Source of the DNA: Aurantiochytrium sp. KH105
Taxonomy: Eukaryota > Sar > Bigyra > Thraustochytrida > Thraustochytriidae
Length of the DNA stretch: 64,000 nucleotides
Reading direction: 5' to 3'
NCBI GenBank assembly: GCA_003116975.1
Contig: BGKB01000085.1
Coordinates: 372,001-436,000 of the forward strand
The notes below the pieces were generated by a model. That model searched no databases, was not told the DNA's origin, and saw nothing but the letters and a program-made list of their open reading frames with translations. The first letter of the stretch is position 1. Each line of letters starts with the position of its first letter. Below are positions 7,775-63,078 of this stretch, in pieces. The position numbers and the translations under genes were made by a program.

Positions 7775-7775
7775 T

Positions 7776-36357: not shown

Positions 36358-38835
36358 ATGGCGCCAGGTGAACGAGTCATGAGTGGGTCAAAGGCTGCGC
36401 GAGCGGCGAAGGGAAAGCGTAGCAAAAAAATTGAAGATCTGTTGGTTTCTTCTTCTGAGTCGGAGGATTCATTCCTCAATTCTTCGGACGATGAATCGCA
36501 AGGCGGTGGACAGTCCGAGTTCGCGACGAAGCGCAAGCCCAAGACCCGACGCGACGAGAGACGTCTGAGCAACACCCTTGCCAACGACGATTCAGGCGAT
36601 GACGATGACGATGACCTTCCTCGCTCGCGGACGGCTCCGCCGCGCAAATCGCGGCGCAAATCGCGGCGCAGCCAGGGAACCGTCAGCTACAAGGAGGAGG
36701 CTGACGACAGCTCCGACAATGGCGACGACGACGACGACGACGACGACAGCAAGAAGAACAATAACGACGACGACGAAGCCTATGACGAGGAGGACGAGGA
36801 CGAGGACGAGGACGTGGAGGAGGAGGGAGAGGAAGAAAACGATGAGGAGGACGAAGAGGCAGTCGCAAAGGTGCCCGATCACGAGCAGGTTGCATCTGAT
36901 TCCGAGTCTGAACTTTCCGGGGAAGACGACGAAGACGAGGTGGCGGAGAAGCAGAAAGTCATTAACAACGACGATGACGCAAATGGTGGCGCTGAGGTTG
37001 TTGAACTGGACTTTAATGCCGGTAACAACAAAGGCGACGACAACGACGTTACAATGAGAGATGATGAGGATCATGGGCAAGAGCACCGTGGGCGAACCGA
37101 AAACATGAGTCCACGCACGACTCCGGGCAAGAAGTCGACCCGTTCCGAAAAATCTCCCATGTCCGAGGGAGATCGCGAGAAGGAACGCGAGAAATACCTT
37201 GTCAAATATGCGCGTACTATTTTCAAGAACTTACCGAATGACGAAGCTCAAGTCACCTTCACCCTTGTGGGTTTCGGACGAGGATATGAGCTTCGCGACG
37301 CCGAGAAGAAAAAGATTCTCGACGGTGAAGGTAAGCGCCTCAAGCTCCGCATCACGCATTTGGAGCTCATGCGATACATTGACGATGCGGGTGTTGATGA
37401 GCTCAAGAACATCTGGAACAGCGCGATCAAAGCTCGCAAACCCCGTGGCTTTGAGGACTTGAGCGTGATGAGGCTTGAAAGGCTTTCTGGAGGCAATGGG
37501 GTTCGATGCACGATCGGAAACCGTTCAGTCTCTCGTTCTGTTGCTTCAGGAGGAGAGCCGAGTCGGTCGTCGAGCAGCAGTTCCCGTGACAACGAGCGTC
37601 ATGCATCTTCCAGTTTCACCTCGAGCTCGACTCCGGTCTCTCGATCCAAAGTTAGAAAGACGCATGAGTTTCGTGATGCCGCTGACGATGGCGAAGCTTC
37701 GTCAATTGTCGACAGTGAGCCGCGGCTCCCAGTACCCGATGCACGTAGTACTCCCACATCTCGGCCGCGTACGCCAGAGCAGCTCAACCAACTTCCCACG
37801 GCGCCCGAGGACTCGGAAGCAATGGATGTAGAGGCAGCAGGCGTCGAGCAGGCAGCTTTTTGCCCGCAAGCACCAGTCTCGGAGCCGGAAGACGCCTCAC
37901 TCTTCACTTCGATGGTTCCAACAAGCAACACGGAAAGCTCGCAGCAGACCGTAACATTACAGCCTTCGAAACCATCGCAGCACACGGTCGCATCGCAGCA
38001 CACAGTTGCATCGCAGCCCACGGTTGCATCGCAGCGTGCGGGCATCTCGCAGCTTGTGGGCACATCGCCGCCTACAGTCACATCGCAACCTGCAGGCACA
38101 TCGCAATCGACCGTCACATCAACGCCTCCGGTCACATCGCAGCCTACAGCGACGTCCAGCGGCATCCCTGAAGCGACCAAGGCCACCTTGACCAGCACGG
38201 AGAACTCTCTGACGACTGCCGGCGAAACGTTGGATGCTGGCCCAGATGCCACAGCTGCTTTTGAAGTTGAGTCCGTGAGCTCTTCGGCTCGGAGAACTGG
38301 ACCGGCAAGAGTCACCGGCGCGAGAATTCTGCCTACAGACTTCTCGGTCAATGATTCTTTGAAAAGAACCATGGAGTTCCTTGAGAAGGAAATGTCAGGT
38401 CTTGTGGCTTCGCGCGAGAAACTTGCCCAAGAGAGGCAGATTAATTGTGCCACCATAAAACAGCTTCGCACCAAGAAAGCAGAACTCGAGAAGAAGAACA
38501 AGGATCTCCAAGATGAAAAGAACGCGCGCGAGACCCAATTAAAAGCTGAGGTCAGCCGGCTGGAAGCCGAGGTCAGCGGCTTGAAAGCTGCGGTCACCCA
38601 AGAGAAAGCCGACAACATGCGTCTCAGCAAAGAGAACAGCGATTTGAAAGCTGAAAACGAGTACCTTCAAGACAGAGTGAATAAGTTTGAGGATGTCAGA
38701 GCGCATATGTTTCGCGTCGGGGAGGATAAGAAGCGCCCTCGTCAAGAACAAGATGCCACTGACAACAGCGGCGAGACCGCGGACGCGTCTCCGAAACGTC
38801 AGCGCGCTGATGGAGAAATGCAGAAGTACAGATAA
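36358..38835 (+). CDS. Acidic coiled-coil protein, WNxAL family member 1
   Basis: The protein has 825 residues from ATG 36358; ATG 36379 is an alternative. Residues 15-30 are basic (AAKGKRSKKI), then come long Asp/Glu tracts (residues 80-220) with an RKSRRKSRRS patch, typical of nuclear proteins. The core (about 278-395) starts EKYLVKYARTIF and includes YIDDAG and IWNSAIKARKPRGF, shared with the genes at 39843 and 44193. A Ser/Thr/Pro/Gln linker with TVASQ-type hexapeptide repeats (about 538-600) follows. Residues 661-785 are a heptad-rich coiled coil (KKAELEKKNKDLQDEKNA), and the tail is basic (KKRPRQE, PKRQRAD). No known domain was recognised. It is probably a nuclear, self-associating protein; that is inference. 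Confidence 0.8.
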   Translation: MAPGERVMSGSKAARAAKGKRSKKIEDLLVSSSESEDSFLNSSDDESQGGGQSEFATKRKPKTRRDERRLSNTLANDDSGDDDDDDLPRSRTAPPRKSRRKSRRSQGTVSYKEEADDSSDNGDDDDDDDDSKKNNNDDDEAYDEEDEDEDEDVEEEGEEENDEEDEEAVAKVPDHEQVASDSESELSGEDDEDEVAEKQKVINNDDDANGGAEVVELDFNAGNNKGDDNDVTMRDDEDHGQEHRGRTENMSPRTTPGKKSTRSEKSPMSEGDREKEREKYLVKYARTIFKNLPNDEAQVTFTLVGFGRGYELRDAEKKKILDGEGKRLKLRITHLELMRYIDDAGVDELKNIWNSAIKARKPRGFEDLSVMRLERLSGGNGVRCTIGNRSVSRSVASGGEPSRSSSSSSRDNERHASSSFTSSSTPVSRSKVRKTHEFRDAADDGEASSIVDSEPRLPVPDARSTPTSRPRTPEQLNQLPTAPEDSEAMDVEAAGVEQAAFCPQAPVSEPEDASLFTSMVPTSNTESSQQTVTLQPSKPSQHTVASQHTVASQPTVASQRAGISQLVGTSPPTVTSQPAGTSQSTVTSTPPVTSQPTATSSGIPEATKATLTSTENSLTTAGETLDAGPDATAAFEVESVSSSARRTGPARVTGARILPTDFSVNDSLKRTMEFLEKEMSGLVASREKLAQERQINCATIKQLRTKKAELEKKNKDLQDEKNARETQLKAEVSRLEAEVSGLKAAVTQEKADNMRLSKENSDLKAENEYLQDRVNKFEDVRAHMFRVGEDKKRPRQEQDATDNSGETADASPKRQRADGEMQKYR
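37978..38160 (+). repeat. Intragenic 18-bp minisatellite
   Basis: About ten diverged units of CA(G/A)CACACGGTCGCATCG type code for repeated (H/P)TVASQ-like hexapeptides in the linker of family gene 1. The array stays in frame. Confidence 0.75.
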
Positions 38836-38947
38836 ATAAATAGATGCTCCTCTAAATAAAAAGTGGGTTATGAATTTTCGTGACCGGACCAGCCAACTCG
38901 AGTGAATGGGAAGCAAGCGAGTAGCAGCGGCTTGAGCTTCCTGCCGC

Positions 38948-38988
38948 TGGACCAATAGTTCACGCCTCCTGACAGGGAGCGTGGTCCA
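38948..38988. repeat. Inverted repeat with TGGACCA / TGGTCCA arms
   Basis: The outer arms TGGACCA and TGGTCCA are perfect complements; inner segments CACGCCTCC and GGGAGCGTG also pair with one or two mismatches around a TGACA loop. Confidence 0.65.
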
Positions 38989-39055: not shown

Positions 39056-39842
39056 ACCGAAAATAAAATCATGAAAACAAGGCTTGTGTTGCCTCCCTGT
39101 GTCACGAATTTTCCTTTGATATGACAGCGCGTCGACGACCTTGCTTCCGAAAAGACAAGGACGCGTGCTGCAAAGAAGGAGTCACTCTTCTTGTCAACCG
39201 AATGCGACAAAATCATGATATTTACAGTCCACGCCCTTGTCGAGAAAATGGATTTTGCGCTTGACCCTGTCAAGCATAGTCGTCGTCAAAGAAACTCGCA
39301 ATCCACTTTCCCAGTTGCACTTCACCGATCACACTTTCGTCCTTGGACGCTTTGCTTGTCCAATTTGCTAGTTTTCGACTTCAGGCACGTCTGACTGACG
39401 ACCGAAATTTGCGATTCGATAAACACGGGTTTAGCAGAGAATGGGCCAAGCAAGGCATCCAAGGAGGATCGTGTGATCATGAAAGTAGAGCTGGAAAAGT
39501 GGAGTGCTCTCTCCTTTGACGACAACTGCGATTGAGAGGGTCAAGCGAAAAAATCCATTTTTTCTCAACTGTAGGCTTGCACGGTGAATGTCAAGAATTC
39601 TCGCTGTCATTTGACAAGAGAGTGGTTCTTCCCTTGCAGCTGGAGTGTCTTTCTTCCCAGAAGCAAGGCCACGGCCGTGCTGTCATAAAAGTCAAAATCA
39701 CGACACATGTAGGCATGACAGACGACCGAGTTTCGCCGGACGAGCGGCAGCAAATCGCAAACTGCAAGAAATAATTGTGGAAATCAGGAGGAACTCAAGA
39801 CCGACGGATAACCCAGACAACGACCAAGAGGACAAGAGTATC

Positions 39843-41438
39843 ATGGAGAGCGAGATCGAGTCCGATGAAGACTGGGTTGCAATGGCTCCAACGCAGAATG
39901 AAGGCGAGGACTATGTCGATGACGAGACCTCAAATCTAAGCACTCAGAACAAGGTGGACGAGGTGAGCAAGGTGGACGAGATGAACAATGTGGACTCGCG
40001 AAATGAGGCGAATGAGTCGAACAGAAGGGCGGAAGAGAAAGACGATAATGCCGGCAACAGCGAGGCCCGAGCGGATGCTGTAAAGCGTCATCGTCCGGAG
40101 GACGACAATAACACCAACGAGAGCTCCATCAAGCGTCAAAGAGCTGCGAAGACGAAGGGAATAAAGCAAACAGCGATGATAGTGGAGCAAGAGCAACAAC
40201 CATTGACCGAATGGTGGGATCATAGTGAAAATGGCCGATCTAAAGGAACAGCATCAGTGAGATCGGGAGCTTTGGCTGATGAGATCGCTGAGAGAAACTC
40301 TGCTCCCTCCGTGTCAGCCGGGGCTCAGGCTCGCGAGGACCTCAGTCGACACTGTCAAGGAGCTGCCGAAGATGGAGATGCGGACAGGGATGTTGATGAA
40401 GAAGACGAAGACGACATCGATTCCGCGGAGAGTGATGACGAAGACCGTGACTTCGGTACGTCTGAGACGCGAAAGGCTAGCACGGCTGAGACGAAAGATT
40501 ATGCACTCGACAGAGATAAGTTTCTCTTCGAGTTCGCTTGCGCCATCAAAGGAAAAGTTCTAGCAGAAATTAGCTCTGCCAGATTCGAGCTGAGCCCTCC
40601 AGAGAAAGGAGGAGGTGGACAAAGTCTCTATCGGGCATCGGGGAACAAGAAAGAATCCATCGTACTCCGTCAGAATAGCCGGAAGATATCCAATCAAAAA
40701 TTTCGCGATTACATCGACGACGCGGAGTCCCAAGGAGAAAATTTTGTTGAGCTCTGGAACAATGCACTCGCCAACAAGGGGAGTCGTCTACAAATCAAGG
40801 GGTTCGAGACAAGAATGGAAGAGCGTGGGAAGAAGAAGAAGATTACCAAGGTTACGTACTTTGTTGTGCGCGTCATCGACACAACTACTCCACCAAGCAA
40901 CCGAGTCAGTTTGATGTCCTACGCATCTGAGCCTCAATGTCACCCTTGTGCGCCCATAAAATTGCCAGTAAGTCGCCAGATCCTAATGGGGTCAAAGTCA
41001 CAGGACTCTTCGGCGGCAAACACATCTTTAGGTACTCCAGCTGAATTCGAGGCGGGAGCTACGTCGTCATCGACTTCATCCTCTTCGCGTTCGGCTCACG
41101 ATCGCCGCACTGAGGAATCCCATCCATCTTTTTCAAACTGCTCAGCAGCTCAGCAGATCCGACTCCTGCAGGAGCACTTGGAAGAAGAAAAGAAGAAGCG
41201 AGAGGATGCAGAAACAGAAGCCGAGCAAGTACGGGAAAGTCGCGCAGAAACGGAAAAGCAGTGGGAAGCAGCCAAGAAAGAGCGAGACATCGCTCATAAA
41301 AAGAAAAGACACTATCAAGAAAAATACGAGCAAGAGAAGAAGAAGCGTGAAAACCTTCAACAAGAGGTTGAGGGAATGCTTGTCGCTATACACGCTTTGC
41401 ATCGCGCCGTTGAGCGTTTCAAGCAGAAACTTTCGTAA
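39843..41438 (+). CDS. Acidic coiled-coil protein, WNxAL family member 2
   Basis: The protein has 531 residues from ATG 39843 (MESEIESDEDWVAM). The frame is open back to 39645 but without an ATG. Residues 1-200 are rich in Asp, Glu and Asn with basic patches (VKRHRPEDDN, SIKRQRAAKTKG) that could be nuclear import signals. The core (about 226-345) starts DKFLFEFACAIKGKV and has YIDDAESQGENFVELWNNAL and LQIKGFETRMEERGKKKK, parallel to gene 1 (YIDDAG, IWNSAI). A Ser-rich linker follows, and residues about 435-531 form a coiled coil (EEEKKKREDAETEAEQVRES). It has the same domain order as genes 1, 3, 4 and 5. No known family was recognised. Confidence 0.8.
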   Translation: MESEIESDEDWVAMAPTQNEGEDYVDDETSNLSTQNKVDEVSKVDEMNNVDSRNEANESNRRAEEKDDNAGNSEARADAVKRHRPEDDNNTNESSIKRQRAAKTKGIKQTAMIVEQEQQPLTEWWDHSENGRSKGTASVRSGALADEIAERNSAPSVSAGAQAREDLSRHCQGAAEDGDADRDVDEEDEDDIDSAESDDEDRDFGTSETRKASTAETKDYALDRDKFLFEFACAIKGKVLAEISSARFELSPPEKGGGGQSLYRASGNKKESIVLRQNSRKISNQKFRDYIDDAESQGENFVELWNNALANKGSRLQIKGFETRMEERGKKKKITKVTYFVVRVIDTTTPPSNRVSLMSYASEPQCHPCAPIKLPVSRQILMGSKSQDSSAANTSLGTPAEFEAGATSSSTSSSSRSAHDRRTEESHPSFSNCSAAQQIRLLQEHLEEEKKKREDAETEAEQVRESRAETEKQWEAAKKERDIAHKKKRHYQEKYEQEKKKRENLQQEVEGMLVAIHALHRAVERFKQKLS

Positions 41439-42042
41439 GCCTTATTTTATCCTTCACATCTACATATAGTACTTTCAAACTTGCCATTTTTAGTCGGTTG
41501 CCGGCCCCTTGCCCGCATCGCTTTTCATCTGGGCGGTTGTGCTGCTCGATCATTTTCTTGCTGTTTTTTATTGACTCGATTACGAATGCCGGCCGCGCAT
41601 CGAATGGCATGCCAAATCCCTTTCGCTGCTATTCAGCCAAGTCTCTGTCAACACCCCGCCAGAACCACAACGCACGTGCGTGCTCCTGCTCATCATTCAT
41701 TGATGGCGTCCCCCACCACCTCCATAACGTCCCAGTCGTCGCCATGCGCGCGAGTCCCGTTCTCCACCTGGGAGACCGATTGACTTTGTCCCCTCGCTCT
41801 CAGGGCGCTCTCACGAGGCCGAAACGCGCGCGCTCTCAGGGCGCTCTCACGAGGCCGAAACGCGCGCGCTCTCGCGGCAGGAGCGACAGACCGCGATCGA
41901 AGCGAGGAGGACGACGAGCCTGGCCAGGCGAAGTCTGCACGGAGGCGCGAAGCGAGGCGAAGCGAGTCGAAGCGGAGAGCACCCACGCTCGCGTGCGTCG
42001 CGGCTTGCAGGGAGGATAGCCAGCCAGCGAGCGGCGAGCACG
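41439..42042. other. Intergenic region with GCTCTCA tandem repeats
   Basis: It separates family genes 2 and 3. The notable content is the 36-bp tandem repeat at 41796-41867; the rest shows nothing. Confidence 0.55.
41796..41876 (+). promoter_or_regulatory. Two-copy 36-bp repeat with GCTCTCA motifs upstream of family gene 3
   Basis: Two identical copies (41796-41831 and 41832-41867) and a partial third begin GCTCTCAGGGCGCTCTCACG, each with two GCTCTCA boxes. It ends about 165 bp before the ATG at 42043. Confidence 0.5.
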
Positions 42043-43548
42043 ATGGCGGGGCTCGCAGACGAGGTCGACGAGGTGGCGAGCGTCGCCACCGGCGACGGAA
42101 ACGACGACGTCGCAAATGATGCTACGCAGGATAACGGCGAGAACTACGAAAGCTCGACAGAGTCCGTGGATACAGAGAGCAGGCCGAGAGATCAGCTCAA
42201 GAGAGGCGGGAGAGACGCAATCAACGTTGACGACTCTGAAGCCGCTGGACCTGGCGAAGGTCAGCAAGCCCCAAAGCGTCTTCGCAGGGAGAACGAGAGC
42301 ACCATCGGAGAGAACCCTCGAGACGAAGACGTCCGAATTGATGATTCGAAGTGTTTACAGCGTACAAATATCGGGAAAGGCACACCCGAGCGCGCAAGAT
42401 CTGAGAAAGCAAAAGGATTCCGCCAGACTGCAACGGCGCTGGAGGAGAAGCAGAAGCGGCAAATAACAAGCAAAGCTGATGCGAGCGGCTCAAGCGGACA
42501 ATGCACAGAGGTAGCTCAAAAGAAAAATTCGGCAAGTGCCAACTCGCGTACTCCCGAGCAGTCGCTGCGAGATCTCAAGAGGTTCCTGAGTTCCCTCGAC
42601 AAGTATATGGAAAAACAGAAGTTGATGCATGTGCGTTTAAAGAATCGCGAAGCGGCATCTTCGCAAACTCCAACAGCGTTGGTGAGAAAAAAGTGGATAC
42701 TCGAGCTGAACGGGGAACGCATTCCCCCGTCGATTTTCGATGCCCACGGCGTTTCCTTTGAGCTCATCGTCCAAGCTTTCCGCTGCCTCGCGGGGAATCA
42801 TGGCATGTGGACCGGCGCCAGCATTAAGCAGGTCTTGAATGACGCCATCAAGAAAATGAGGTATCCGCCAAATTTTCGCATCACAAAGGGCAAGCTCGAT
42901 CTGGCCGGTGGGAACACTTTGAGTATGAGTTTCTATGTTAAGACCAGCGATGTAGCAGCGCGAATGCTTCAGGGCTGGGCAAGTCCCGAAAGAAAAGCGT
43001 CTTCAAGTAGTTCCCTTATGGAAAAAATACTGAAGTCGTCTGGTCACTCTGGCTCGACCTCAACGAGCGTACCTTCGCGCGACGCGAACACTTCGAGACA
43101 TCTTCTCTTTGGTTCAACGACATCCCCAAGCTTTTCCGGGACAGCTTCGATTTCACGACGCCAGGAGGCTCCTGATGCTGCATCAAACAGCCGACTCGTC
43201 GAAAGGAGCAAGAGTTCGTCACTCCAAGAGGAGGACGACGAGGAGGAGGAAGGACAGACCAGAGTGCTGCAGCAAATGGAATGTGAGTTCCAAAAAATCC
43301 GCGAAAAGAAGAAAGAGCTGAAAGCTGCGAAGGTGAACTTGGAAAGCTTGCGTGCCGAACTCGAATCTCATAATCAGCAATGCAAGTGCCTCGAGGAGAA
43401 GCTCGCAAGAGCGAAGAGCACTCGGGAGGCCATTGCTGCAATGGAAAGAGCTGCTCAGAACAAAGTCCAAAAAGGAGAGGAAGTATTGCAAGAGGCTCGC
43501 CGAGCATCTCGGAAGACCTATAAAGGCTTGCAGCGCTTTTTCGAATGA
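42043..43548 (+). CDS. Coiled-coil protein, WNxAL family member 3 (diverged core)
   Basis: The protein has 501 residues from ATG 42043 (MAGLADEVDEVASV). Residues 1-170 are charged and Asp/Glu/Asn-rich with a PKRLRRENE patch. The core (about 184-310) starts LDKYMEKQKLMHV and has KQVLNDAIKKMRYPPNFRI in the place of the WNxAL stretch of its neighbours, so the Trp is lost and the relation rests on position and overall layout. A Ser-rich linker (SSSSLMEKILKSSGHSGS) is followed by an acidic EEDDEEEEG run and a coiled coil from about residue 407 to the end (KIREKKKELKAAKVNLESL). It is tandem with genes 2 and 4 on the same strand. Confidence 0.78.
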   Translation: MAGLADEVDEVASVATGDGNDDVANDATQDNGENYESSTESVDTESRPRDQLKRGGRDAINVDDSEAAGPGEGQQAPKRLRRENESTIGENPRDEDVRIDDSKCLQRTNIGKGTPERARSEKAKGFRQTATALEEKQKRQITSKADASGSSGQCTEVAQKKNSASANSRTPEQSLRDLKRFLSSLDKYMEKQKLMHVRLKNREAASSQTPTALVRKKWILELNGERIPPSIFDAHGVSFELIVQAFRCLAGNHGMWTGASIKQVLNDAIKKMRYPPNFRITKGKLDLAGGNTLSMSFYVKTSDVAARMLQGWASPERKASSSSSLMEKILKSSGHSGSTSTSVPSRDANTSRHLLFGSTTSPSFSGTASISRRQEAPDAASNSRLVERSKSSSLQEEDDEEEEGQTRVLQQMECEFQKIREKKKELKAAKVNLESLRAELESHNQQCKCLEEKLARAKSTREAIAAMERAAQNKVQKGEEVLQEARRASRKTYKGLQRFFE

Positions 43549-44192
43549 ATTTCATGAACCTACGCAACGCAAGAATGACGGCCAGCATTTTGTCTCGTTT
43601 CTTTCCCGACCCTTGCCTTGGACTTGATATTAACGCAATCGTTCCATCATACATGCCCTGGAACGCCATGATTCAGGTAGGCACATATTCATGTAGATCG
43701 CACGTGCCGCGTCCATCACCCAGATCTTTTTCTGCCAACTTGACGCCGACGAGTTCCTTCTGGACTGCACCCAACTCACGACGAGCTCTTTCTTTCCCAC
43801 CAGGCAAAGCGCTCTCCTTTGCGTGCGTGGCCTCCGTCTCCCGATGGCAGCCCATGAGAGAGCACCGCACGCGCCCTCGTCCGCGCTCCCGATGAGCGGC
43901 GCCCGTTCATGATGAGCAGCGGCCGCTCCCAATGAGCAGCAGCCGCTCCCGATCGCACACCCGCTTCTATCTGTCTGTCAGTCACTTCCAACGACACCCG
44001 CTCTCAACTTTTTGCTCTCAACTTTTTGCTCTCAACTTCAGACTGCCCTTGCGCGCGCGCGCGGGCGCCGTCAGGGAGGGGCGTGATGGCTGGCGAGGCT
44101 GGCTGGCCGAAGCGGCAGCGGGCAGCAGACCCCGAACGAGCTCGAGGAAATCGGCTTGGAGAACGAAGCGAGACGGACAAGTAGCGAGCAAG
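43549..44192. other. Intergenic region with short tandem motifs before family gene 4
   Basis: It contains GAGCAGC(A/G)GCCGCTCCC-type repeats (about 43885-43955) and the CTCTCAACTTTTT array (44000-44038). No gene is seen. Confidence 0.55.
44000..44038 (+). promoter_or_regulatory. Three tandem GCTCTCAACTTTTT units upstream of family gene 4
   Basis: Three near-perfect 14-bp units, each with the GCTCTCA core, end about 155 bp before the ATG at 44193. Confidence 0.5.
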
Positions 44193-45329
44193 ATGGCCCA
44201 CGAGGTTGTCATCCTGAATGACGGCGAGGAGGAGCACGTGAAGGAGACGAGCGATTGGAACAGAGCGGCGTTCGACGAGGAGGACAAGAGAGAGGCTCTG
44301 CGCGACGTTTCTACAAGTGATGATACCGATGGCGCCATGGACAACGACAACCACCGCGTCGGTGAAGACGACGAGGACGATGATGAGGAGGACGAGGAGG
44401 CCGTCGATGACGACGAGGAGGCCGTCGATGACGACGATGACGACGCTGACGGGGACTATGTTGGCAATGATGGCGGGGCATCCACGTACAGGTCGAGCGG
44501 GCAAAAGGTCGTCAAAGAGAAGACGATCATGGTGAGCAACCAGAAAGAAAGGAAGAAGCGAGACGCTTACCTCGTGGAATATACCACAGCCATTGGAGAG
44601 GAAATTCCGGAAGGTAAAGACTCTGAACTTTGTACAGTGAGTCCTCCGAGGAATGGGGGAAAGGGGAAAAGTCTTTACTTCAAGTCGAAAAAAGATGGTG
44701 CTTCCATTAAACTCTACAAGAATTCGCAGAAGATCTCAAGTGGAACCCTATGCGGGTACATCACTGGCGCCGGAAGCAATCCAGAGGAGTTCCGTGGGAT
44801 CTGGAATGCTGCCCTCGAGCAAAGCGGAATTCCCCTCATGATCACGAGCCTTGAAAGAGTTTTTCAAAATTGCGGAAAGACAAACGAAAAGACGATGATC
44901 ACGCGCTTCACTGTGCAACGTACCGCTGCGACCACTTCGCAAGGAGGCCAACGAGCCCGCGCTAGCCGTTCGTCCACCTCGGTCTCTTTTGCCTCTCCGA
45001 CAAGTCCTGCCACGTCTCCTCCGGCGACGCGGTCCAACCCCCCGCGTCGGCAATCGCTCTCTTCAACGGCAGCTCAGGCCAGCCTGACGAAGACTTCCGG
45101 TCTCAAGCGCAGCTATGCGGACCTCGAGAACGAGCTCGAGAAGGCGAAGAGACAGCGTTCTGTCTCTGAAGAGCGGTCTCGGAAACTCCAGTCTGACCTC
45201 AACGCTGCCCAGACCAAAATCGCCGCCCTCGAAGCCAGTCTTGAAAAGATCAAAGGAGAGCTCGCGGACTCCCAGCAGACCGGGAAGCTGCTCAAGCAGC
45301 TTTTCAACCACAACACCAAGAACCTCTAA
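44193..45329 (+). CDS. Acidic coiled-coil protein, WNxAL family member 4
   Basis: The protein has 378 residues from ATG 44193 (MAHEVVILNDGEEE), the shortest of the family. Residues 45-90 are an Asp/Glu tract (DDEEDEEAVDDDEEAVDDDD). The core (about 124-250) starts DAYLVEYTTAIGEEIP, matches gene 2 at PPRNGGKGKSLYFKSKKDG (gene 2: PPEKGGGGQSLYRASGNKK), and has YITGAGSNPEEFRGIWNAAL. A Ser/Thr/Pro linker leads to a coiled coil at about 305-370 (ELEKAKRQRSVSEERSRKL). It is the clearest relative of gene 2. Function unknown. Confidence 0.8.
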   Translation: MAHEVVILNDGEEEHVKETSDWNRAAFDEEDKREALRDVSTSDDTDGAMDNDNHRVGEDDEDDDEEDEEAVDDDEEAVDDDDDDADGDYVGNDGGASTYRSSGQKVVKEKTIMVSNQKERKKRDAYLVEYTTAIGEEIPEGKDSELCTVSPPRNGGKGKSLYFKSKKDGASIKLYKNSQKISSGTLCGYITGAGSNPEEFRGIWNAALEQSGIPLMITSLERVFQNCGKTNEKTMITRFTVQRTAATTSQGGQRARASRSSTSVSFASPTSPATSPPATRSNPPRRQSLSSTAAQASLTKTSGLKRSYADLENELEKAKRQRSVSEERSRKLQSDLNAAQTKIAALEASLEKIKGELADSQQTGKLLKQLFNHNTKNL

Positions 45330-53130: not shown

Positions 53131-53941
53131 GCGGCGGCAGCGGCAGGGGCAGCGGAAGCGTATGCACCTGGTCACGTCTCACCGCGCACGCACGCTCGGC
53201 GCAGGCACCATCGCCACCAATTGCGACCGGATCATCGATGGTGAACGCATGAACAAAATGCCCAACGTGGTCCGTGACGGCTTGCGGTCGAGGGAGCGAG
53301 CGATGGGTCATCGCCGGCGACGCGGCGGTGGTGCTGTGGCTTGCTTGACTTGACTGCGGCGGCGGTATGTAACGCAACGCATACGTACGGCACGGTGCGC
53401 GATGAGGATGCAGTTACAAGCAAGAGGGCGAACGTGTAATCAAAGGTAGCCGAGCGCCTCACCTTGACGCGGGGGTTATGGATAGGTAGATGACCTGCAG
53501 CTGGCTGGCAGCGCGCACTGCTAGTAGTCACCGCATCGCACTGCGTTTGCCAACGGCAAAGCAAGCGCCACGCGAGGGTTGGTTGTTGTGCACCGCTGCT
53601 AGGCCTAGTACTTGCTCACGTTCATCGCTCTAGTACTTGCTTGTGCTTTGCGCCAAGACCCACCTCCTTCCTTCTGCTCCAAGAGCTTTCGTCTACTATA
53701 CCCTGTCGACGTGACAAGAGGCGCCGCTGCGAGAACGCGCCGACCGTCTCATCGTTCGCCGGCGGGACTCCAAATCGCGAGTATACATCCTCCCGCTCTT
53801 GCCCGCCTTGATGGCGAAATCAGGCACCCGGCGCGTGCATCGCTTTCCCACTTCCTCTTTCCCCCTCCAAAACGTGCGGCTCTGGCGTCGCCAGGACTTG
53901 CCGGCCTTGCTCCCCCATTGCTCCGCTCTTGCTCTTGCCCT

Positions 53942-53953
53942 TGCTCCTGCCCT

Positions 53954-54000
<47 letters not shown>

Positions 54001-54002
54001 TC
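53942..54002. repeat. GCTCCT hexanucleotide array
   Basis: About eight tandem GCTCCT units with a few variant units at the start. Confidence 0.9.
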
Positions 54003-54623
54003 CACCCCCATCCCCATCTCCGTCTACACCTCCGCCCGGCCTGCCGCGTCGCCGCCTCCGCGCCGCGCGTCGCCGCCCGGCCTCGCGCCGCCGCCGCGTG
54101 CGTCATCCCCATCGATCTCCCTTTTTTTTCCACATCCATCTCCCGCCTCGCCCCGCTTCCCGCCCGCACCGCGCCGCGGCACGCCGCGGCCGCGCGTCCG
54201 GTTAGCGAGGGCGCGGGGCGCGAGCGAGGCAGGCATGCAGGCAGGGGAGAAGGCGCGCGAGCGGGCGGCTCGGGCGCGGCGTGCACGCGAGGGAGGGAGG
54301 GAGGGAGGGCGGGAGGGAGACGTCGCTTTCAGGCAGCGGGAGGGGAGAAGATATCTTCGGGCGAGGCGGGTTTAGGCCCGCTACGGGCGCAAAGGCGGCG
54401 CGAGACGCAGACGCAAGGGAGACACGCCCGGCGCCCTTTTTGCGCGCGGCGGGGGCGAGACAGACTCGCATCGCATCGAGGCGCGGCGCATCGCAGCGCG
54501 GCGCGGCGCATCGCACGGGGCGGCTCGCCTGCAGCAGCGGCGGCGGTTGCGGTCGCGGTCGCGGTCGCGAAGCGCGAGCGGAGACAGGGCCGGCGGAGAG
54601 GCCGCAGAGCGCGCCGGCGGGCG

Positions 54624-57600
54624 ATGGTGGCCAACATGCACGGCGCCGTGCTGCGCCACGGCGCGGGCCTCGTGCGCGCGGCCGCGCAGAGGAACGCGCT
54701 CGCGGGGCCGCGCGCGCACGCCGCGAGGGCGCTGAGCGCAGCGGCGTCGCAGGGCGAGGGCAAGAACATCCGCATCGGTATCATCAAGGAGGGCGAGGAG
54801 CGCGTCGGCATGGTCCCTGAGAACCTCGACAAGCTCGTCAAGAAGGGCGCGGAGGTCCAAGTGCAGGACGGAGCCGGTGTCGCCGCAGGATTCTCCAACA
54901 GCCAGTACGAGGCCGCCGGCGCAAAGATCGTCTCCGGCGAAGAGGTCTGGAAGAGCGACGTGGTTGTCACCATCAACAAGCCCTCCTCCGATGACCTCAA
55001 GAAGCTCGAGGACCGCCTCATCGTTTCTCAGCTCCAGGCCCGCAACGACCCGGCCGTCTACGACCAGCTTGCCGAGCAAAAGGCCACCGGCCTCAGCCTC
55101 GACATGCTCATGCGCACCCTCTCGCGCGGCCAGGCCTTTGACGTCCTCAGTTCCCAGGCCAACGTCGCCGGCTACCGTGCCGTCATCGAGGCCGGCTACC
55201 AATTCCAGCGCCCCTTTGCGGGCCAGATGACCGCCGCCGGCCGCATCAACCCGGCTCGCGTCCTCGTATGCGGTACCGGTGTCGCCGGTCTTGCGGCCAT
55301 CCAGGCCGCCAAGAACCTTGGCGCCGTCGTCAACGCCTTTGATGTGCGCGCCGCCGCCGCCGAGCAGGTCCAGTCCATGGGCGCCAACTTTCTCAAGGTC
55401 GAGAGCGACGAGGACGGTTCCGCCGCGGGCGGCTACGCCAAGGAAATGTCCGCCGAGTGGTTTGAAGCCGCGCGCAAGATGCTCCTCAAGGAGTGCGCCT
55501 CCACCGACATTATCATCACCACCGCACAGATCCCCGGCAAGAAGGCCCCCGTGCTCATCACCAAGGAGATGGTCGAGGCCATGCCCAGCGGCGGTGTCAC
55601 GGTTGATCTCGCTGCCTCCACCGGCGGTAACGTCGAGACCACCCAGCTCGACAAGGTCGTCTCCATCACCGGCAAGAATGGCCAGACCATCAACTGCGTC
55701 GGCTACGGCAACATGCCCGCGCGCATGGCCTCGGTCGCCAGTACGCTCTTTGGTGGCAACGTGTCCAAGCTCCTGCTCAGCATGTACGACAAGGAGGGCA
55801 ACTTTGTGGTCAACGAGAGCGACGAGGCCGTGCGCTCCATGCTCATCGTCAACGCCGGCAAGAAGCTCGAGCCCTACAACCCGCCCCCGCCCCCTGTCGC
55901 TCCCGTCTCGGATGAGCCCAAGGAGGAGCCCAAGCCCGTTGACCCCCAGCAAAAGACCCTCGAGACTGTTCTCCTCGGCACCGGTATTTCCAGCGCCGCC
56001 ATTGGCGTCGGCTCCAAGGTCCCCGACACGGGTCTCCTCGCCACCTTTGCCCTCTCCGTCTGGCTCGGCTCTGGCTCGGTCCGCGGTGTCGCCCACTCGC
56101 TCCACTCCCCGCTCATGAGCATCACCAACGCTATCTCCGGTATGACCATCGTTGGCGGCATGCTCCAGCTCGGCGGCGGCATTCTCCCCCACACCATGCC
56201 CCAGCTTCTCGGCGCCACGGCTGTCACGCTCTCGGCCGTCAACCTGACGGGTGGCTTCATGGTCACCAACAAGATGCTCGACATGTTCCGTCGCAAGGAT
56301 GACCCCCCTGAGTTCAACCACTACTACCTTCTTCCCCCTGCCGTCGCCGTTGGTGGCCTCGGCCTCGCTTCCCTTGCCGGCAACTCTTCCGCCGTCGCCG
56401 GCACCCTCGGTCTCGCCTCGGGTCTTGGCTGCATTGCTGGTATCTCGCAAATGTCCAGCCAGTCCACGACTCGCATTGCTCCCTACGCCGCCATGGGTGG
56501 TGTCGGCATGGGTATTGCCAGCGCTCTTCAGGCCATGGACGTCCCTGCCTCCGTGTACGGCCAGCTCGCGATCACCTCGGCCATTGGCGGTGGTATCGGC
56601 TACGCCCTCGCCGGTCGCATTGGACCCACCCAGCTCCCCCAGGCTGTCGCTGGCTTCCACTCGCTCGTCGGTGTTGCCGCTACCTCGACGGCCGTCGGTG
56701 ACTTCCTCACCCACGACTTTACCCACTTTGACGGCTTCCACGCCTCGTCCATCTACCTCGGTGCCTTTATGGGCAGCATCACCGCCACGGGCTCCGTCAT
56801 TGCTTTTGGCAAGCTCGCCGAGATGATGTCCACCGATGCCCTTGCGCTCCCTGGCCGTGATGCCCTCAACATTGGCATGGGCGCTGGCTCGCTCCTTGGT
56901 CTCGCTGGCTTCCTCACGACCTCGGACCCGACCATTGCTGGCGCCTGCCTCGCCTCGGGTGTTGGTCTCAGTGGTCTCATGGGTCTGCACATGACCGCCA
57001 GTATTGGTGGCGCTGACATGCCCGTTGTCATCACTCTTCTCAACTCGTACTCTGGCTGGGCGCTTTGCGCCGAGGGCATGATCCTCGACAGCCCTGTGCT
57101 CACCATCGTCGGTGCCCTTATTGGCAGCTCCGGTGCCTTCCTCACCAACGTCATGTGCGAGGGCATGAACCGCTCGCTCGCCAACGTTATCCTTGGCGGC
57201 TTTGGCACTTCCACCGGTGGTGCTGGTGTCGCTTCGGATGACGACCTCGTTGTTACCGAGATTGACTCGGCTGGCACCGCCGAGGCCCTCAAGGGTGCCT
57301 CCAAGGTGCTCTTTGTTCCCGGCTACGGTCTTGCCGTGGCCCAGGCCCAGGGCATTGTTGCTGACATTTCCAGCAAGCTCATTGCCGAGGGCAAGACGGT
57401 CCACCACTGCGCCCATTCGGTCGCTGGCCGCATGCCTGGTCAGCTCAACGTGCTTCTTGCCGAGGCCGGCGTCCCTTACGACATTGTCCTCGACATGGAG
57501 GAGATCTCCGACGACGAGATGGCCGATTACGACGTTGCCGTCGTCATCGGCGCCAACGACACCATCAACAAGGCCGCTCGCGACGATCCTTCCTGCGCCA

Positions 57601-57779
57601 TTGCTGGCATGCCCGTCATCCCCGTCTGGCTCGCCAAGCACTGCGTCGTCCTCAAGCGCAGCGCCAACCCGCGCTCCGGTTACGCCAACCTTGCCAACAC
57701 TACCTTTGGCGAGAACAACTGCGACCTGCTCCTCGGTTCTGCCAAGGATACCCTCGAGCAGATCCGCTCCAACCTTTAG
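54624..57779 (+). CDS. NNT: NAD(P) transhydrogenase, proton-translocating, single fused polypeptide
   Basis: The protein has 1051 residues from ATG 54624 (MVANMHGAVLRHGAG). It couples hydride transfer from NADH to NADP+ with proton movement across the inner mitochondrial membrane. The first 45 residues are Arg/Ala-rich and fit a mitochondrial presequence. Domain I (NAD-binding, PntA-like) follows: IGIIKEGEERVGMVPE, the RNDPAVYDQL loop region, VLVCGTGVAGLAAIQAAKNL and GGVTVDLAASTGGNVE. After a Pro-rich linker (PPPPPVAPVSDEPKEEPKP) comes membrane domain II with many Gly/Ala-rich helices. Domain III (NADP-binding) is at the end: VPGYGLAVAQAQ, HCAHSVAGRMPGQLNVLLAEA, VVIGANDTIN. The alpha-then-beta fused order is as in animal NNT and many protists. 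Third-position G/C bias is extreme, as expected for high expression. Confidence 0.95.
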   Translation: MVANMHGAVLRHGAGLVRAAAQRNALAGPRAHAARALSAAASQGEGKNIRIGIIKEGEERVGMVPENLDKLVKKGAEVQVQDGAGVAAGFSNSQYEAAGAKIVSGEEVWKSDVVVTINKPSSDDLKKLEDRLIVSQLQARNDPAVYDQLAEQKATGLSLDMLMRTLSRGQAFDVLSSQANVAGYRAVIEAGYQFQRPFAGQMTAAGRINPARVLVCGTGVAGLAAIQAAKNLGAVVNAFDVRAAAAEQVQSMGANFLKVESDEDGSAAGGYAKEMSAEWFEAARKMLLKECASTDIIITTAQIPGKKAPVLITKEMVEAMPSGGVTVDLAASTGGNVETTQLDKVVSITGKNGQTINCVGYGNMPARMASVASTLFGGNVSKLLLSMYDKEGNFVVNESDEAVRSMLIVNAGKKLEPYNPPPPPVAPVSDEPKEEPKPVDPQQKTLETVLLGTGISSAAIGVGSKVPDTGLLATFALSVWLGSGSVRGVAHSLHSPLMSITNAISGMTIVGGMLQLGGGILPHTMPQLLGATAVTLSAVNLTGGFMVTNKMLDMFRRKDDPPEFNHYYLLPPAVAVGGLGLASLAGNSSAVAGTLGLASGLGCIAGISQMSSQSTTRIAPYAAMGGVGMGIASALQAMDVPASVYGQLAITSAIGGGIGYALAGRIGPTQLPQAVAGFHSLVGVAATSTAVGDFLTHDFTHFDGFHASSIYLGAFMGSITATGSVIAFGKLAEMMSTDALALPGRDALNIGMGAGSLLGLAGFLTTSDPTIAGACLASGVGLSGLMGLHMTASIGGADMPVVITLLNSYSGWALCAEGMILDSPVLTIVGALIGSSGAFLTNVMCEGMNRSLANVILGGFGTSTGGAGVASDDDLVVTEIDSAGTAEALKGASKVLFVPGYGLAVAQAQGIVADISSKLIAEGKTVHHCAHSVAGRMPGQLNVLLAEAGVPYDIVLDMEEISDDEMADYDVAVVIGANDTINKAARDDPSCAIAGMPVIPVWLAKHCVVLKRSANPRSGYANLANTTFGENNCDLLLGSAKDTLEQIRSNL

Positions 57780-58372: not shown

Positions 58373-61363
58373 TCACTTCCATGTCTCATCCAGCGTCGAC
58401 TTGCCCACCGCCTTGGACAGATAGATGGTGAGTGCGAGAAGCGCAGCAATAAGAGCGAGAAGGAGACCCGAAGCAAAGTCCTCGTCGAGAACATCGAAAC
58501 CGCGAGAAGGCATGACACGCGTGTAAAAGATATCGAGACCTGCAGCAAGAACCAGGGAGGTCGACTCGAGGCGCGTCGCAAAGCTGCGAATGAGACGCAA
58601 CTGCGGGATTGACTCGTAGTACGTAATGGTCTGCGTCGGAATCAAGGGCAGCTCCGGCGCGTACAGCATGAGGCCCTCCTCCTTCTCCATGTCGCTCAGC
58701 TTGCCAACAGGCCGCCGAGGGCTGAGAATCTGCGGCAGCTGCATGTTCACAGCCCCGTTCGCCGTGCCAATGAGCACGCGGCGGTCCGCGATACCAAAGC
58801 GAGTCTTGGTCACGCCAAGAGCCGCAATGGCGCGCTCCGTGTAAAACGTCTTTTGCTGCACATTCGGCATCATCGAGTCGTCAAAGGCAGACATTGCCTT
58901 GCCGCTGCCCATGTTGGGACGCGATGACCAGATGTTCAGCTCGCGGGGACCAATTTCGCCCTCAAAAAGACCCACCACAGACACCTCCTGGCGACTCTTG
59001 ACCTGGTTCCAGAACGAATAGGTCACCGTGTTGTCGGCCAAAACAGCATGGACAGGGCCCGTCGACTTTTTGTGAGTAAAACGGGAAATCACCCGACCCG
59101 AGATTCCGTTGAGAATAGAGACTTGCAAATGCGGACCACTCTGCGTGGCCACCATCAAGAGGTGCGGGTCCACAAACTTGACGAGCACGGCTCCGTCGCC
59201 GCGCTTGATGCCCGGATTGTTGAGCGCGCCGCCGCTTTGGCCCTCGACAGCGAGAAGGGTCTGCGACGCAGGGACAATAATGGACCACAGCTCTACGCCA
59301 GCGCGTTGCGAGGGGTCGACGGCATAGCCCGTGAGTGCGCCCGTCTCGTTCGAATAGACGACAAAGTGCAGGGCGCGCAACTGGTCCTCGAGCTGCAAGA
59401 CAGATTCGGTGCGGCTCGAGGGAAGGACGTGTACCCGCTGCGCGTGGTCAAGAGCAATCAAGACGGCTGCGGGGCTGACATCTTCTTCACTGGACGCGGC
59501 GCTGGGGAAAATATCGCCCGGGAGAACAGCAATTTGCGCCAAGGGCGTGTCAATGTCCTCGACCCTGGTCACCGCGCCAGTAATGGCATTGCGCCAGGTG
59601 ACGCGGCCGTGCGCTTCGTCCACGATTGCCACCTCGGCAGGGTGATCAAGACCGGCTTCGCGCGCGCGCGTGACGAAAAGACGCGATCCAGGGGACTGCG
59701 CGGCCCAAAGGAGACTGCCATCGGCCGAGTTGAGGCCGAAGACCTTGCCGCTCGCACTGCGCAAGACCAAAACACGGCGAAAGCCAAAGGAAAACATTTC
59801 GCCCTGCGAAAGGCTCTCGGCACGCGGGAGCTCCCCGCGAATGGCCTGCACCAGCATCTTGCCCTGCGAAGCGACAAACTCGCTCAGATGCTGTGTGGCC
59901 GCGCCAAAGAGAGACTGAACAAAGCGTTGCACCGTGCGCACCTGGTCCTTGAGCCTGAACATGAGAATGCTTGCATGCGAGCCGTGCGCAAAGACGTGCG
60001 CGGCCTCGTCACCCAGCGATCCGACTTCATCCGTTGGCGGCAAATCCACTGCCACGGCTTCCACGACGTTGGCCAAAGCCTCCTCGCGAACAAAGAGCGT
60101 GCTTGCCTCGCTTGCGCCAGACTCGATCTCGATGCCCACGGCAGACGCATCCTCAAACACAAAGATGGCACGCGTGCCAGTGCTTGAGTCGCCCACGATG
60201 ATTCTTTCAACGAGCCCGCGCGCACCCGATTGGCCTTGCGGCTCCGGAAATGCAATCTCAGTGACGCCGCCCGCCGATTGCACGAGTACGCGCGAGATTG
60301 GGCCGCACTGCGCCTCGTCACCGGTACCGGAAGCGGTGCTGCTCTGTACCGCGGCGATGACCGATGCACCGCTCACACCAATTGCAGCGGCCTCGACGCC
60401 CTTGAGAGCCTCTGCGATCTTGAGTTCGCCATCAACCGCGTAGATAACACCAGCATCCGTGGTGAAGAAGCGCGCGGAGCCAAGCGACTGTACCGAGCCC
60501 TTGATCGAGGGAGCGTTCGTGAGCTCTTGCAGTTGGTTCGCAACGCAGTCAAAAGCGACGAGGGCGCCGGACTCCTTGCGCACAAAAAGTAGCGCAGAGC
60601 CCACCTTGGCCACGCCGCTCTTAAGCACGGTGATTTCATCAGCAGAGACGCCTTCGAGACCCGAAACCGGGTCAAGGGTGGCGCCCGAGTTCGCGAGCTT
60701 GCGAACCTCGAGCTTACCGGTCTTGATATCCACGCCATAGGCCATGATAGAGGGGCGCTTGCGCTTGCCACCCGTCGCGCTACCAGCGGCCTCGACAAGA
60801 CCTTGCCACGCAATGGTCTTGTCGAGATCGACCTCGTGGAGCACGCGTCCCGAAACACCGTCCAAGACGACAAATTGAAACGGCGTAAGAGCCGCCACGT
60901 CGGGCGTGCCATCGTTGTTAAAATCGTTGTCGAGAAGTTCGAGAACACCCGTCGCATCCGCATCGGCATTGTCGCAGATCTTGGCGTCCCATTCGAGGCC
61001 GGCTTGGCGGGAGTCAGACGTCACCACGCCACCGGACGGGGTCGCCCAAAGCTCGATGACGCACGCGTCGGCCGATGCCGTCGCAAAAAGTTCGTGCTTG
61101 ACTCGAGAAGCCAACGGCGCAGATCGTGCCGTGGGCAGGGTCTCGCGCCAGACCACCTCGCCATCCGTCATGCGCACGGCGCCGACCGTGGCCTGGGTCG
61201 TTGCGACGAGGGCCAGGTCGTCATCCAAAAAGACGCCGTGCGCATAGGCGCCGAGATTGCGCACCGTCCAGTCGTTGACGCCAGCCTGGTCCTCGTGCAG
61301 GCCGTGCGCAACACTGACGGCCGCCGCCAGCACGGCGGCCGCCATGCGCGCCGTCGCCGTCAC
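58373..61363 (-). CDS. EMC1: ER membrane protein complex subunit 1
   Basis: The protein has 996 residues from ATG 61363 (MVTATARMAAAVLAAAV). EMC1 is the large lumenal subunit of the ER membrane insertase complex. A signal peptide (AAAVLAAAVSVAHG) is followed by LHEDQAGVNDW, the typical EMC1 start just after cleavage. The body is two beta-propeller-like regions with Trp/Asp repeats (DGEVVWRETLP, DGSLLWAAQSP). The C-terminal block is the most conserved: SSRPN, RAIAALGVTKTRFGIADRRVLIGT, YAPELPLIPTQTITYYE, and IFYTRVMPSRGFDVLDEDF, then one transmembrane helix (LLLALIAALLALTIYL) and a short cytosolic tail. The length matches animal EMC1 (about 990). ATG 61342 is a possible later start. Confidence 0.94.
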   Translation of the reverse strand: MTATARMAAAVLAAAVSVAHGLHEDQAGVNDWTVRNLGAYAHGVFLDDDLALVATTQATVGAVRMTDGEVVWRETLPTARSAPLASRVKHELFATASADACVIELWATPSGGVVTSDSRQAGLEWDAKICDNADADATGVLELLDNDFNNDGTPDVAALTPFQFVVLDGVSGRVLHEVDLDKTIAWQGLVEAAGSATGGKRKRPSIMAYGVDIKTGKLEVRKLANSGATLDPVSGLEGVSADEITVLKSGVAKVGSALLFVRKESGALVAFDCVANQLQELTNAPSIKGSVQSLGSARFFTTDAGVIYAVDGELKIAEALKGVEAAAIGVSGASVIAAVQSSTASGTGDEAQCGPISRVLVQSAGGVTEIAFPEPQGQSGARGLVERIIVGDSSTGTRAIFVFEDASAVGIEIESGASEASTLFVREEALANVVEAVAVDLPPTDEVGSLGDEAAHVFAHGSHASILMFRLKDQVRTVQRFVQSLFGAATQHLSEFVASQGKMLVQAIRGELPRAESLSQGEMFSFGFRRVLVLRSASGKVFGLNSADGSLLWAAQSPGSRLFVTRAREAGLDHPAEVAIVDEAHGRVTWRNAITGAVTRVEDIDTPLAQIAVLPGDIFPSAASSEEDVSPAAVLIALDHAQRVHVLPSSRTESVLQLEDQLRALHFVVYSNETGALTGYAVDPSQRAGVELWSIIVPASQTLLAVEGQSGGALNNPGIKRGDGAVLVKFVDPHLLMVATQSGPHLQVSILNGISGRVISRFTHKKSTGPVHAVLADNTVTYSFWNQVKSRQEVSVVGLFEGEIGPRELNIWSSRPNMGSGKAMSAFDDSMMPNVQQKTFYTERAIAALGVTKTRFGIADRRVLIGTANGAVNMQLPQILSPRRPVGKLSDMEKEEGLMLYAPELPLIPTQTITYYESIPQLRLIRSFATRLESTSLVLAAGLDIFYTRVMPSRGFDVLDEDFASGLLLALIAALLALTIYLSKAVGKSTLDETWK

Positions 61364-61842
61364 CATCGTGCGCGTCCTCCCTCCGCGCGCCACGTGCAGA
61401 GCGACCTCGTATCCGCGCGCCACGGGGGCAAAACAACCTCTCGATGAAGAAGGAAAGCTCAGGAAGAAGCTCGGTCGCGCCGCGAGCGCGCGCCGAGTGC
61501 CGCTGCAAGCAGATGCGGTGCCGGGCACAAGCGGGCACACACGCTCCCCGCGCTCCGGCGAGGACGAGCGCGATCTGGGCGAGCAGGCAAAGGTCTTTTG
61601 CTGCTGCGCTGCGGCTGATGTGCTGGCGCCTCCAGAATGTCATTCGCTCGAAGCGGGGAAAATAGGGCCGCTTTTTCCATGGATACATGGCTAATTCGAC
61701 CCGGCTTGCTTGACAAGGCTTCGGCATGTCAACAAACAAATCAGATGATCGCTTGCCAGAATGCAAAGGGACAAAGATATGGCTTCTTTCGGATAACTGC
61801 TTGCCAGATCGAGAAGAGATGGCGTATGTCGTGAGCTCCGGG
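61364..61842. other. Intergenic region
   Basis: It lies between the EMC1 start and the 3' end of family gene 5. No gene or notable repeat is seen. Confidence 0.6.
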
Positions 61843-63078
61843 CTAGTTCATGTTTTGGAGGTTGTTAATGTACTCGGCTCTGACCCTCTCGCGAACCTTG
61901 CGCTCGGTATCCTTCACTTCTCTCATCAGCGCGGCGATTTGTTGCGCCTGGTCTTCGTTCTCACGCTTGAGAAGACAATTTTTTTCCTCTAGATCGATTT
62001 TTTGCGACCTGAGTGCACAGATCACTTTCTTTGTTGCAGTGTGTGCGTCTTCCTCTTGCCGAAATTTGCGCTTGTACTTGTTGTCTTTCTGCTTGGGGTT
62101 CTCAACAGTCTCATTGTTGAGTGTAGGATCCTCTTGGCCTGACGCACGGCGAGTCAAGGTCGAAGAGGACGACGAGGCCACGGCCACTCGATCGTTGGTG
62201 GACTGAACCTGCGGTGCTGGGGTGTTGTCTGAGCTCGGGCTCTGACACGGCACGATGACCTTGAATTTAATGCGGAAGCTTTTCGACGGCTCCGTTTCAG
62301 CTTGTACTTTCACGCTGAGACCAACCTTTTCTGTTTCCAACGCGCGGTTCCAGGCTTTCTCATAAATTTCACAGTCCAAAAGGCCAGTGGAGGCAACCTT
62401 CGACTTCTTGAAAAGGTTTTCGAGGGCCTCCATGAACACCGAGTGTGAACGCTTGAGATTCGTTATCTTCTTCTTGTCGTTTGACTCGGACTGAAACTCC
62501 ATGCTGTATCCCGTGTTCTTGTAGAGAAAGAGATTCGCCTCAATGTTGCCAATCCCGGAAATCTTGCTTTGAGCGAAATTCACAACATCCTTGGTGTGTT
62601 CAGCGACAATGTGCTCCAGCGTCTCGTTGTCATTCGAATGGTTCCGACGCGGCGGTCCATGTCCTTGCTCGTGGGCATTCATTCCTGCATCGTTGTCTTG
62701 CTGGCTTTTACGGCGACGCTCTTCGCCGATGCCCCTGGCTCTGCGTTGACGTTTCCCGTCATTGGAAAGTGGCTCAGCAGCACCGAGTCCAGAAGTGCGA
62801 TCTCCTTCTTCGGACTCACCATTGCTCTCGTTCTGAAAGCGATTGCCATGGCCATCGTTGCCATGTTCATTTTTTCCACCACCGCTGTTCTCTCGGACAC
62901 GGGCGCCGCCATTCTGACATAGGCTGTCATCGCCGGACATCTCGTTGTCCTCCAAGGTCAAATCCAGTCCCCCTCTTGTTCTACCCTCGTCCATGGAGTC
63001 CGGGGTACGCGATACTCGGAGCTGCGCATGGCGTTGGTCGCCATGCACTACTGCCACGATATCGTCATTGCTCGTCAT
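61843..63078 (-). CDS. Coiled-coil protein, WNxAL family member 5
   Basis: The protein has 411 residues from ATG 63078 (MTSNDDIVAVVHGD). Residues 1-150 are charged and Asn/Gly/Glu-rich with a GKRQRRARG patch and an EERRRKSQQ patch. The core (about 150-285) includes FMEALENLFKKSKV and EKAWNRALETEKVGLSVKV, matching IWNSAI / LWNNAL / IWNAAL of genes 1, 2 and 4. A Ser-rich linker (VAVASSSSSTLTRR) leads to a coiled coil from about residue 330 to the end (KIDLEEKNCLLKRENEDQ). It sits 16 kb from the tandem cluster and on the opposite strand. Function unknown. Confidence 0.78.
   Translation of the reverse strand: MTSNDDIVAVVHGDQRHAQLRVSRTPDSMDEGRTRGGLDLTLEDNEMSGDDSLCQNGGARVRENSGGGKNEHGNDGHGNRFQNESNGESEEGDRTSGLGAAEPLSNDGKRQRRARGIGEERRRKSQQDNDAGMNAHEQGHGPPRRNHSNDNETLEHIVAEHTKDVVNFAQSKISGIGNIEANLFLYKNTGYSMEFQSESNDKKKITNLKRSHSVFMEALENLFKKSKVASTGLLDCEIYEKAWNRALETEKVGLSVKVQAETEPSKSFRIKFKVIVPCQSPSSDNTPAPQVQSTNDRVAVASSSSSTLTRRASGQEDPTLNNETVENPKQKDNKYKRKFRQEEDAHTATKKVICALRSQKIDLEEKNCLLKRENEDQAQQIAALMREVKDTERKVRERVRAEYINNLQNMN

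Follow-up and report, generated by a model that had tools for sequence, protein, structure and literature searches.

Proteins that combine a basic globular domain with a coiled coil for oligomerisation are represented by LINE-1 ORF1p and the Gag proteins of retroelements, and acidic or disordered tails are found together with a coiled coil and high protein divergence in the proteins of the synaptonemal complex and the kinetochore. A stretch of 64,000 nucleotides of the thraustochytrid Aurantiochytrium sp. KH105 (contig BGKB01000085.1, positions 372,001 to 436,000 of the forward strand; hereafter the window, in whose numbering all coordinates without another name are given) was found to contain five genes, numbered 1 to 5, whose products can be compared with both groups. 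The order of the domains is reversed relative to ORF1p and no polymerase was found among the window open reading frames (ORFs) scanned; no Pfam match above cut-off was obtained that would tie the products to the synaptonemal-complex or kinetochore proteins. It is proposed tentatively, at somewhat less than an even chance, that the genes form a fast-evolving, tandemly duplicated and apparently lineage-restricted family, and that its products are soluble, probably located in the nucleus, and assemble into oligomers in which the basic core binds either nucleic acid or some acidic partner; we infer the oligomerisation, the binding partner, the nuclear location and the lineage restriction. The genes look like an undescribed orphan family, which falls short of demonstrating a new system. 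The literature searched, on coiled-coil, lineage-specific, and tandem or gene-conversion families of thraustochytrids, contained no description of these proteins, which is compatible with an earlier sequence-only reading that had called them apparently undescribed.

The five ORFs reported in that reading were present with the starts it gave, namely ATG codons at 36358, 39843, 42043 and 44193 on the plus strand and at 63078 on the minus strand. The coding sequences were found to occupy 36358..38835 (gene 1, plus, 825 residues), 39843..41438 (gene 2, plus, with the open frame extending from a GTG at 39645), 42043..43548 (gene 3, plus, 501 residues), 44193..45329 (gene 4, plus, 378 residues) and 61843..63078 (gene 5, minus, 411 residues). 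All five window frames and their five copies on a second contig, C184, were open from ATG to stop. The single layout claimed for the genes was borne out in five of five by isoelectric point (pI), Ser+Thr content and heptad periodicity: an acidic, probably disordered N-part (pI 4.1-5.5) is followed by a basic core of 113-131 residues (pI 8.6-10.1), a linker with 29-41% Ser+Thr, and a heptad-periodic C-terminal segment (pI 8.6-9.7).

The core was located at 37189..37527 in gene 1 (residues 278-390), 40512..40883 in gene 2 and 44559..44927 in gene 4, all on the plus strand, and at 62248..62625 on the minus strand in gene 5, where it was placed by profile alignments; the candidate core of gene 3 lies at 42565..42957 (plus). 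The coiled coil was found at 38350..38832 in gene 1, together with the tail, at 40981..41587 in gene 2 and 43095..43905 in gene 3, each with its 3' flank, at 45102..45326 in gene 4 (these four on the plus strand), and at 61846..62082 in gene 5 (minus). The heptad periodicity of all five C-termini exceeded that of 2,000 shuffles per gene, with p values of 0.0005 (gene 1, first 120 residues), <0.0005, <0.0005, 0.0025 and 0.036 for genes 1 to 5, respectively, and proline was absent from the stretches used. No transmembrane-like stretch was found in the five proteins, the maximum 19-residue hydropathy being 0.41-1.07.

The search of the genome assembly (76 Mb, 367 contigs; all gene counts are lower bounds) extended the family beyond the five members first described to at least eight genes, the other three being of the gene 5 type. 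Contigs C66 and C42 were found to contain one such gene each, with 58 and 56% identity over gene 5, which are read as an allele pair, and contig C28 was found to contain two tandem genes, C28a and C28b (L023:4108-7559); a copy of these on a second haplotype was not found in the genome. A stop codon is present in both the C66 and the C42 copies (L021:6164 and the L022 equivalent); in C66 it cuts the coiled coil short, some 35 residues ahead of where the coil of gene 5 ends.

Sequence comparison clearly shows homology among the cores of genes 1, 2 and 4, with blastp expectation values (E) of 1e-21 between genes 2 and 4, 1.5e-6 between genes 1 and 4, and 0.004 between genes 1 and 2. The motifs claimed for them were all found, namely EKYLVKYARTI, YIDDA and IWNSAI in gene 1, DKFLFEFACAI, YIDDA and LWNNAL in gene 2, and DAYLVEYTTAI, YITGA and IWNAAL in gene 4, as were AWNRAL in gene 5 and VLNDAI in gene 3. 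The pairwise matches of the gene 3 and gene 5 cores were not significant, the best being that between genes 4 and 5 (E 0.037). A profile of the gene 1, 2 and 4 cores with the allele rows of genes 2 and 4, searched against 1,342 ORFs of at least 40 residues from the window and the three paralog loci, gave four non-self matches at E <= 1, all of the gene 5 type: the C42 paralog (7.5e-4), the C66 paralog (1e-3), C28b (0.1) and gene 5 (0.31); C28a was missed. Without the allele rows the gene-5-type matches were found at 0.0084, 0.012, 0.2 and 0.21, and C28a at 2.7. The alignment of the two profiles by hhalign gave E 8.8e-5 over 23 columns with a probability of 60%, and the best non-member for the gene-5-type profile was gene 2 (sequence E 0.29, domain E 0.0074). 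Gene 5 was found at 1.4e-6 once the profile also included the C28 and gene 3 rows. The Asn and Ala of WNxA were invariant across the eight aligned cores, gene 3 included. The core of gene 5 is thus likely to be related to those of genes 1, 2 and 4, modestly, at the profile level and mainly via its paralogs, a link that is considered likely because of the rank of the matches and the common motif more than any single E-value. The claimed core family therefore stood for genes 1, 2 and 4 by blastp and, modestly, for gene 5 by profile, whereas the core of gene 3 was unsupported by sequence.

The core is predicted to be a small, mostly basic alpha+beta domain of no known family. In an AlphaFold2 model of the gene 2 core, aligned with genes 4 and 1, the predicted local distance difference test score (pLDDT) was 85.0 and the predicted template modelling score 0.80, with two of the five models below 65. 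The modelled elements (H2-22, E29-35, E45-48, H68-80, H85-95, E100-112, E117-128) are a helix, two strands with short bridges, two helices and two long strands. Foldseek gave no match for this model at E <= 0.001 among the best 50 of 325 PDB and the best 50 of 537 BFVD matches at E <= 10. Agreement of the folds was checked on two cores, that of gene 2 being confident (pLDDT 85) and that of gene 3 having a pLDDT of 49.

Nothing in the five proteins was found above the curated cut-offs of Pfam; 19 of the 21 lines below cut-off fell in the C-terminal part and the remaining two in gene 3 (Rpn3_C, E 1.9; Retrotrans_gag, E 9.6). The 11 core sequences matched no Pfam family at E <= 10, and the best E of the gene 1, 2 and 4 profile in a PDB sequence search was 0.11. 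The failure of the sequence-only reading to recognise a known domain was thus upheld by the Pfam and Foldseek comparisons. No relative was found in prokaryotic genome contigs, which were searched with the gene-5-type cores only, or in viral contigs, which were searched with a few short peptide patterns that reach close relatives. The 13 PHROGs lines at E <= 1 were rejected, ten of them being in coil or linker (best 1e-4, gene 1 coil), one in the gene 4 N-part, and two on the gene 5 core, where they named families of unknown function (E 0.026 and 0.15). The gene-5-type profile was found to match three chains of the ribosomal protein eL31 over the helix-WN-strand (E 0.003-0.024), but this was treated as chance, as E was 0.55-0.64 with all eight cores, there was no Pfam match, and no eL31 was seen among the best 50 of the 325 Foldseek rows, some of which are ribosomal chains without a protein name.

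The family is fast-evolving. Between the haplotypes, 217.5 nonsynonymous and 108.5 synonymous differences were found in the family, giving a nonsynonymous to synonymous ratio (pN/pS) of 0.57, against 92.5 and 173.5 in six neighbouring genes (pN/pS 0.17; single genes 0.00-0.30; Fisher p 5e-15). The linker and coil of gene 2 were omitted from the pooled rates as a conversion tract, and the N-part of gene 2 was taken from the GTG at 39645. RMD and ORF31 (pN/pS 0.17-0.78), whose frames or limits are uncertain, were kept out of the neighbour pool, and their inclusion would raise the neighbour figure. The pooled pN/pS was 0.55 in the N-part, 0.38 in the core, 0.69 in the linker and 0.87 in the coil. 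The pooled core is under purifying selection and departed from neutrality (Fisher p 5e-4), as did the N-part (p 0.002), whereas the coil did not (p 0.72); the core did not differ significantly from the coil plus linker (p 0.13). In the single genes, the core pN/pS ranged from 0.05 (gene 3) to 2.64 (gene 1), and the coil of gene 4 contained 13 nonsynonymous and no synonymous changes. Between paralogs, nonsynonymous (dN) and synonymous (dS) divergence were 0.25 and 0.34 for gene 5 and C66, and 0.39 and 0.57 for C28a and C28b, so that great age is needless for the low identity of these pairs. The sequence-only reading had offered old or fast-evolving as alternatives; of these, it was fast evolution that was supported.

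Each of the five window genes was found to have a second copy on contig C184, where the order of the genes is inverted and the cores are 88-99% alike; these copies are read as the other haplotype of a host that is probably diploid. Half of the 76 Mb assembly is 38 Mb; a genome of 38.7 Mb with 57% guanine plus cytosine (GC) is given for the thraustochytrid strain CCAP_4062/3 (PMC5854782). Window GC was 51-63% in 30 of the 32 two-kilobase steps. The most striking feature, absent from the sequence-only reading, is a coil swap. Gene 2 of C184 was found to contain its own N-part and core, followed by the presence of gene 3 sequence from about window position 40981, so that the coiled coil and 3' flank of window gene 2 are replaced by a copy of the 3'-part of gene 3. 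By blastn, L026 5261-6109 (C184 about 122260-123108) matches window 43095-43905, and the blocks flanking this tract match window 40501-40980 and 41588 onward; the codon alignment and the identity of the tract agree. Over its first nine 60-base steps the tract was 97-100% identical to gene 3 of C184 and 77-100% to gene 3 of the window. The likeliest explanation of the swap is a gene conversion on the C184 haplotype, with gene 3 as donor and gene 2 as recipient, after the haplotypes had parted. Misassembly may be an alternative, although the two C184 copies differ at a few positions, which speaks against a plain duplication of one sequence.

In the family as proposed, the coiled coil would form homo- or hetero-oligomers, the core would bind either nucleic acid or some acidic partner, the acidic tail would compete with this binding or bind basic proteins such as histones, and the Ser/Thr-rich linker could be a site for regulation. 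The sequence-only reading had guessed at nuclear or chromosome-associated self-assembling proteins, and these properties are likewise inferred here. Several results weigh against this proposal. Basic clusters, present in all five proteins and to that extent in its favour, were above composition-matched shuffles in only two; the layout is looser in the paralogs, the core of C28a not being basic (pI 6.3), nor the coils of two of the three (C66, pI 6.3; C28a, pI 5.2). Selection on the core is weak per gene, with nine nonsynonymous changes to one synonymous in gene 1 and a pN/pS of 1.01 in gene 4, and the dN/dS of the paralog cores (0.78 and 1.02) is hard to fit to a strongly constrained binding surface. 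At the level of homology, gene 5 itself was recovered at only 0.31 by the gene 1, 2 and 4 profile, gene 1, when searched with a profile built from the remaining seven cores (gene 3 included), was recovered at only 0.032, and the corresponding profile without gene 3 did not list the core of gene 3 at E <= 10, hhalign giving E 0.3 and 0.35 for it.

The last of these results also favours a different view of gene 3, namely that it is not a core homologue but has an N-part and, on one haplotype, a coil in common with gene 2, around an unrelated or replaced middle domain. Its core was the most constrained between alleles (one nonsynonymous change to six synonymous), which is a further point for this view. 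Against it, the gene 3 core was found to be basic (pI 10.1) and of similar length, its predicted elements are similarly ordered, and its motif N and A are in register in the eight-core alignment, which was made with gene 3 in it. Folded alone, it was modelled as a helix, strands, two helices, and strands with extra short helices, an order that resembles that of the gene 2 core, but its pLDDT of 49 is too low to count. The N-part of gene 3 aligns with that of gene 2 (z 4.6) at a score that none of 300 window-preserving shuffles reached, this pair being one of 28 N-part pairs compared. Gene 3 is assigned to the family because of this similarity, its position between genes 2 and 4, and the presence of its coil in the other-haplotype gene 2. 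Its core is best taken, conditionally, as that of a diverged member, and the contrary view is kept as a serious possibility, about as plausible as one of three equal alternatives.

It is unlikely that these are recognition or conflict proteins, in which the coil would set the partner and coil exchange with fast change would yield new pairings, for self-recognition or in intragenomic conflict. The joining of the gene 2 core to the gene 3 coil in C184, the pN/pS of the coil, above all in gene 4, and the excess of the family over its neighbours would all fit. However, fast evolution is common in disordered and coiled regions, and relaxed constraint explains numbers in which the coil does not depart from neutrality and the core does not differ significantly from the coil plus linker; the exchange is a single one in a single strain, and the five proteins are without a transmembrane-like stretch. 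To the same degree we doubt that they are nearly dispensable, drifting, low-complexity proteins without specific function, for which the high pN/pS and the stop that shortens the coil in C66 and C42 would speak, against the departure of the pooled core and N-part from neutrality and the open frames of the window and C184 copies.

Slightly more doubtful still is an origin in a mobile element or virus, the proteins being domesticated nucleoproteins of the Gag or ORF1p type whose coil-driven oligomers once coated nucleic acid. The basic core next to a coiled coil, the copies both tandem and dispersed, and the imperfect inverted repeat that precedes gene 2 would agree with it; yet a Pfam scan of 19 other, longer window ORFs showed none of the families of reverse transcriptase, integrase or capsid, the Retrotrans_gag line of gene 3 is at the level of chance, no match of the gene 2 core at E <= 0.001 was seen among the best 50 of 537 in BFVD, the viral contigs yielded no close relative, and copy number is low. 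The further idea of a modular family built round a new fold, in which ectopic gene conversion shuffles coils between neighbours and alternative core-coil combinations, each with other partners, would provide heterozygous cells of a unicellular protist with a self-recognition or assembly code, is held to be very improbable.

The 5' leader of gene 5 (63101..63200, minus) was better conserved than most of the coding sequence. Two 50-base steps of it were 92% and 86% identical to the C66 paralog (91.7% over 109 bases), against 56 to 90% in the coding steps. A 104-base piece of it had four matches in the genome, namely gene 5, its C184 copy, C66 and C42, and a weaker related block was found 5' of the C28 pair. 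A 16-codon upstream reading frame, read by eye, is present in the leader of gene 5, the C184 copy, C66 and C42, and the leader may serve as a promoter or in the control of translation. A conserved frame (SLFTC...) ahead of the gene-5-type ATG was rejected as a missed coding sequence and is treated as leader, a TAA being present within it in the window and C184.

Upstream of gene 2, at 39189-39619, an imperfect inverted repeat with 113-nucleotide arms at 76% and 22-nucleotide outer arms was found, which could be a fold-back element. Roc-COR-TIR proteins are encoded at window 24747-26900 and at L021:6703-9714, adjoining the C66 paralog, and the adjacency may be coincidence. Elsewhere in the window were found four tandem frames at 6295-12007 that resemble Mob1-type kinase activators, a frame at 14763-17543 resembling a fused mRNA capping enzyme with methyltransferase, and a single long frame at 53799-57779 resembling a fused NAD(P) transhydrogenase. 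In keeping with a thraustochytrid host, the PfaA polyketide-synthase model was matched in the genome by two pairs of long frames with E down to 1.4e-278, although all were under the family cut-off and the model also matched in 11 of 14 control genomes.

If confirmed, the proteins would bring a so far undescribed domain family to light in a thraustochytrid, a member of a group of protists used in industry; the fold predicted for the compact core is without significant match in two libraries (PDB and BFVD). The coil swap would be a natural experiment, in which one core is joined to two coils in one cell, and the role of the coil in the choice of partner would be directly testable.

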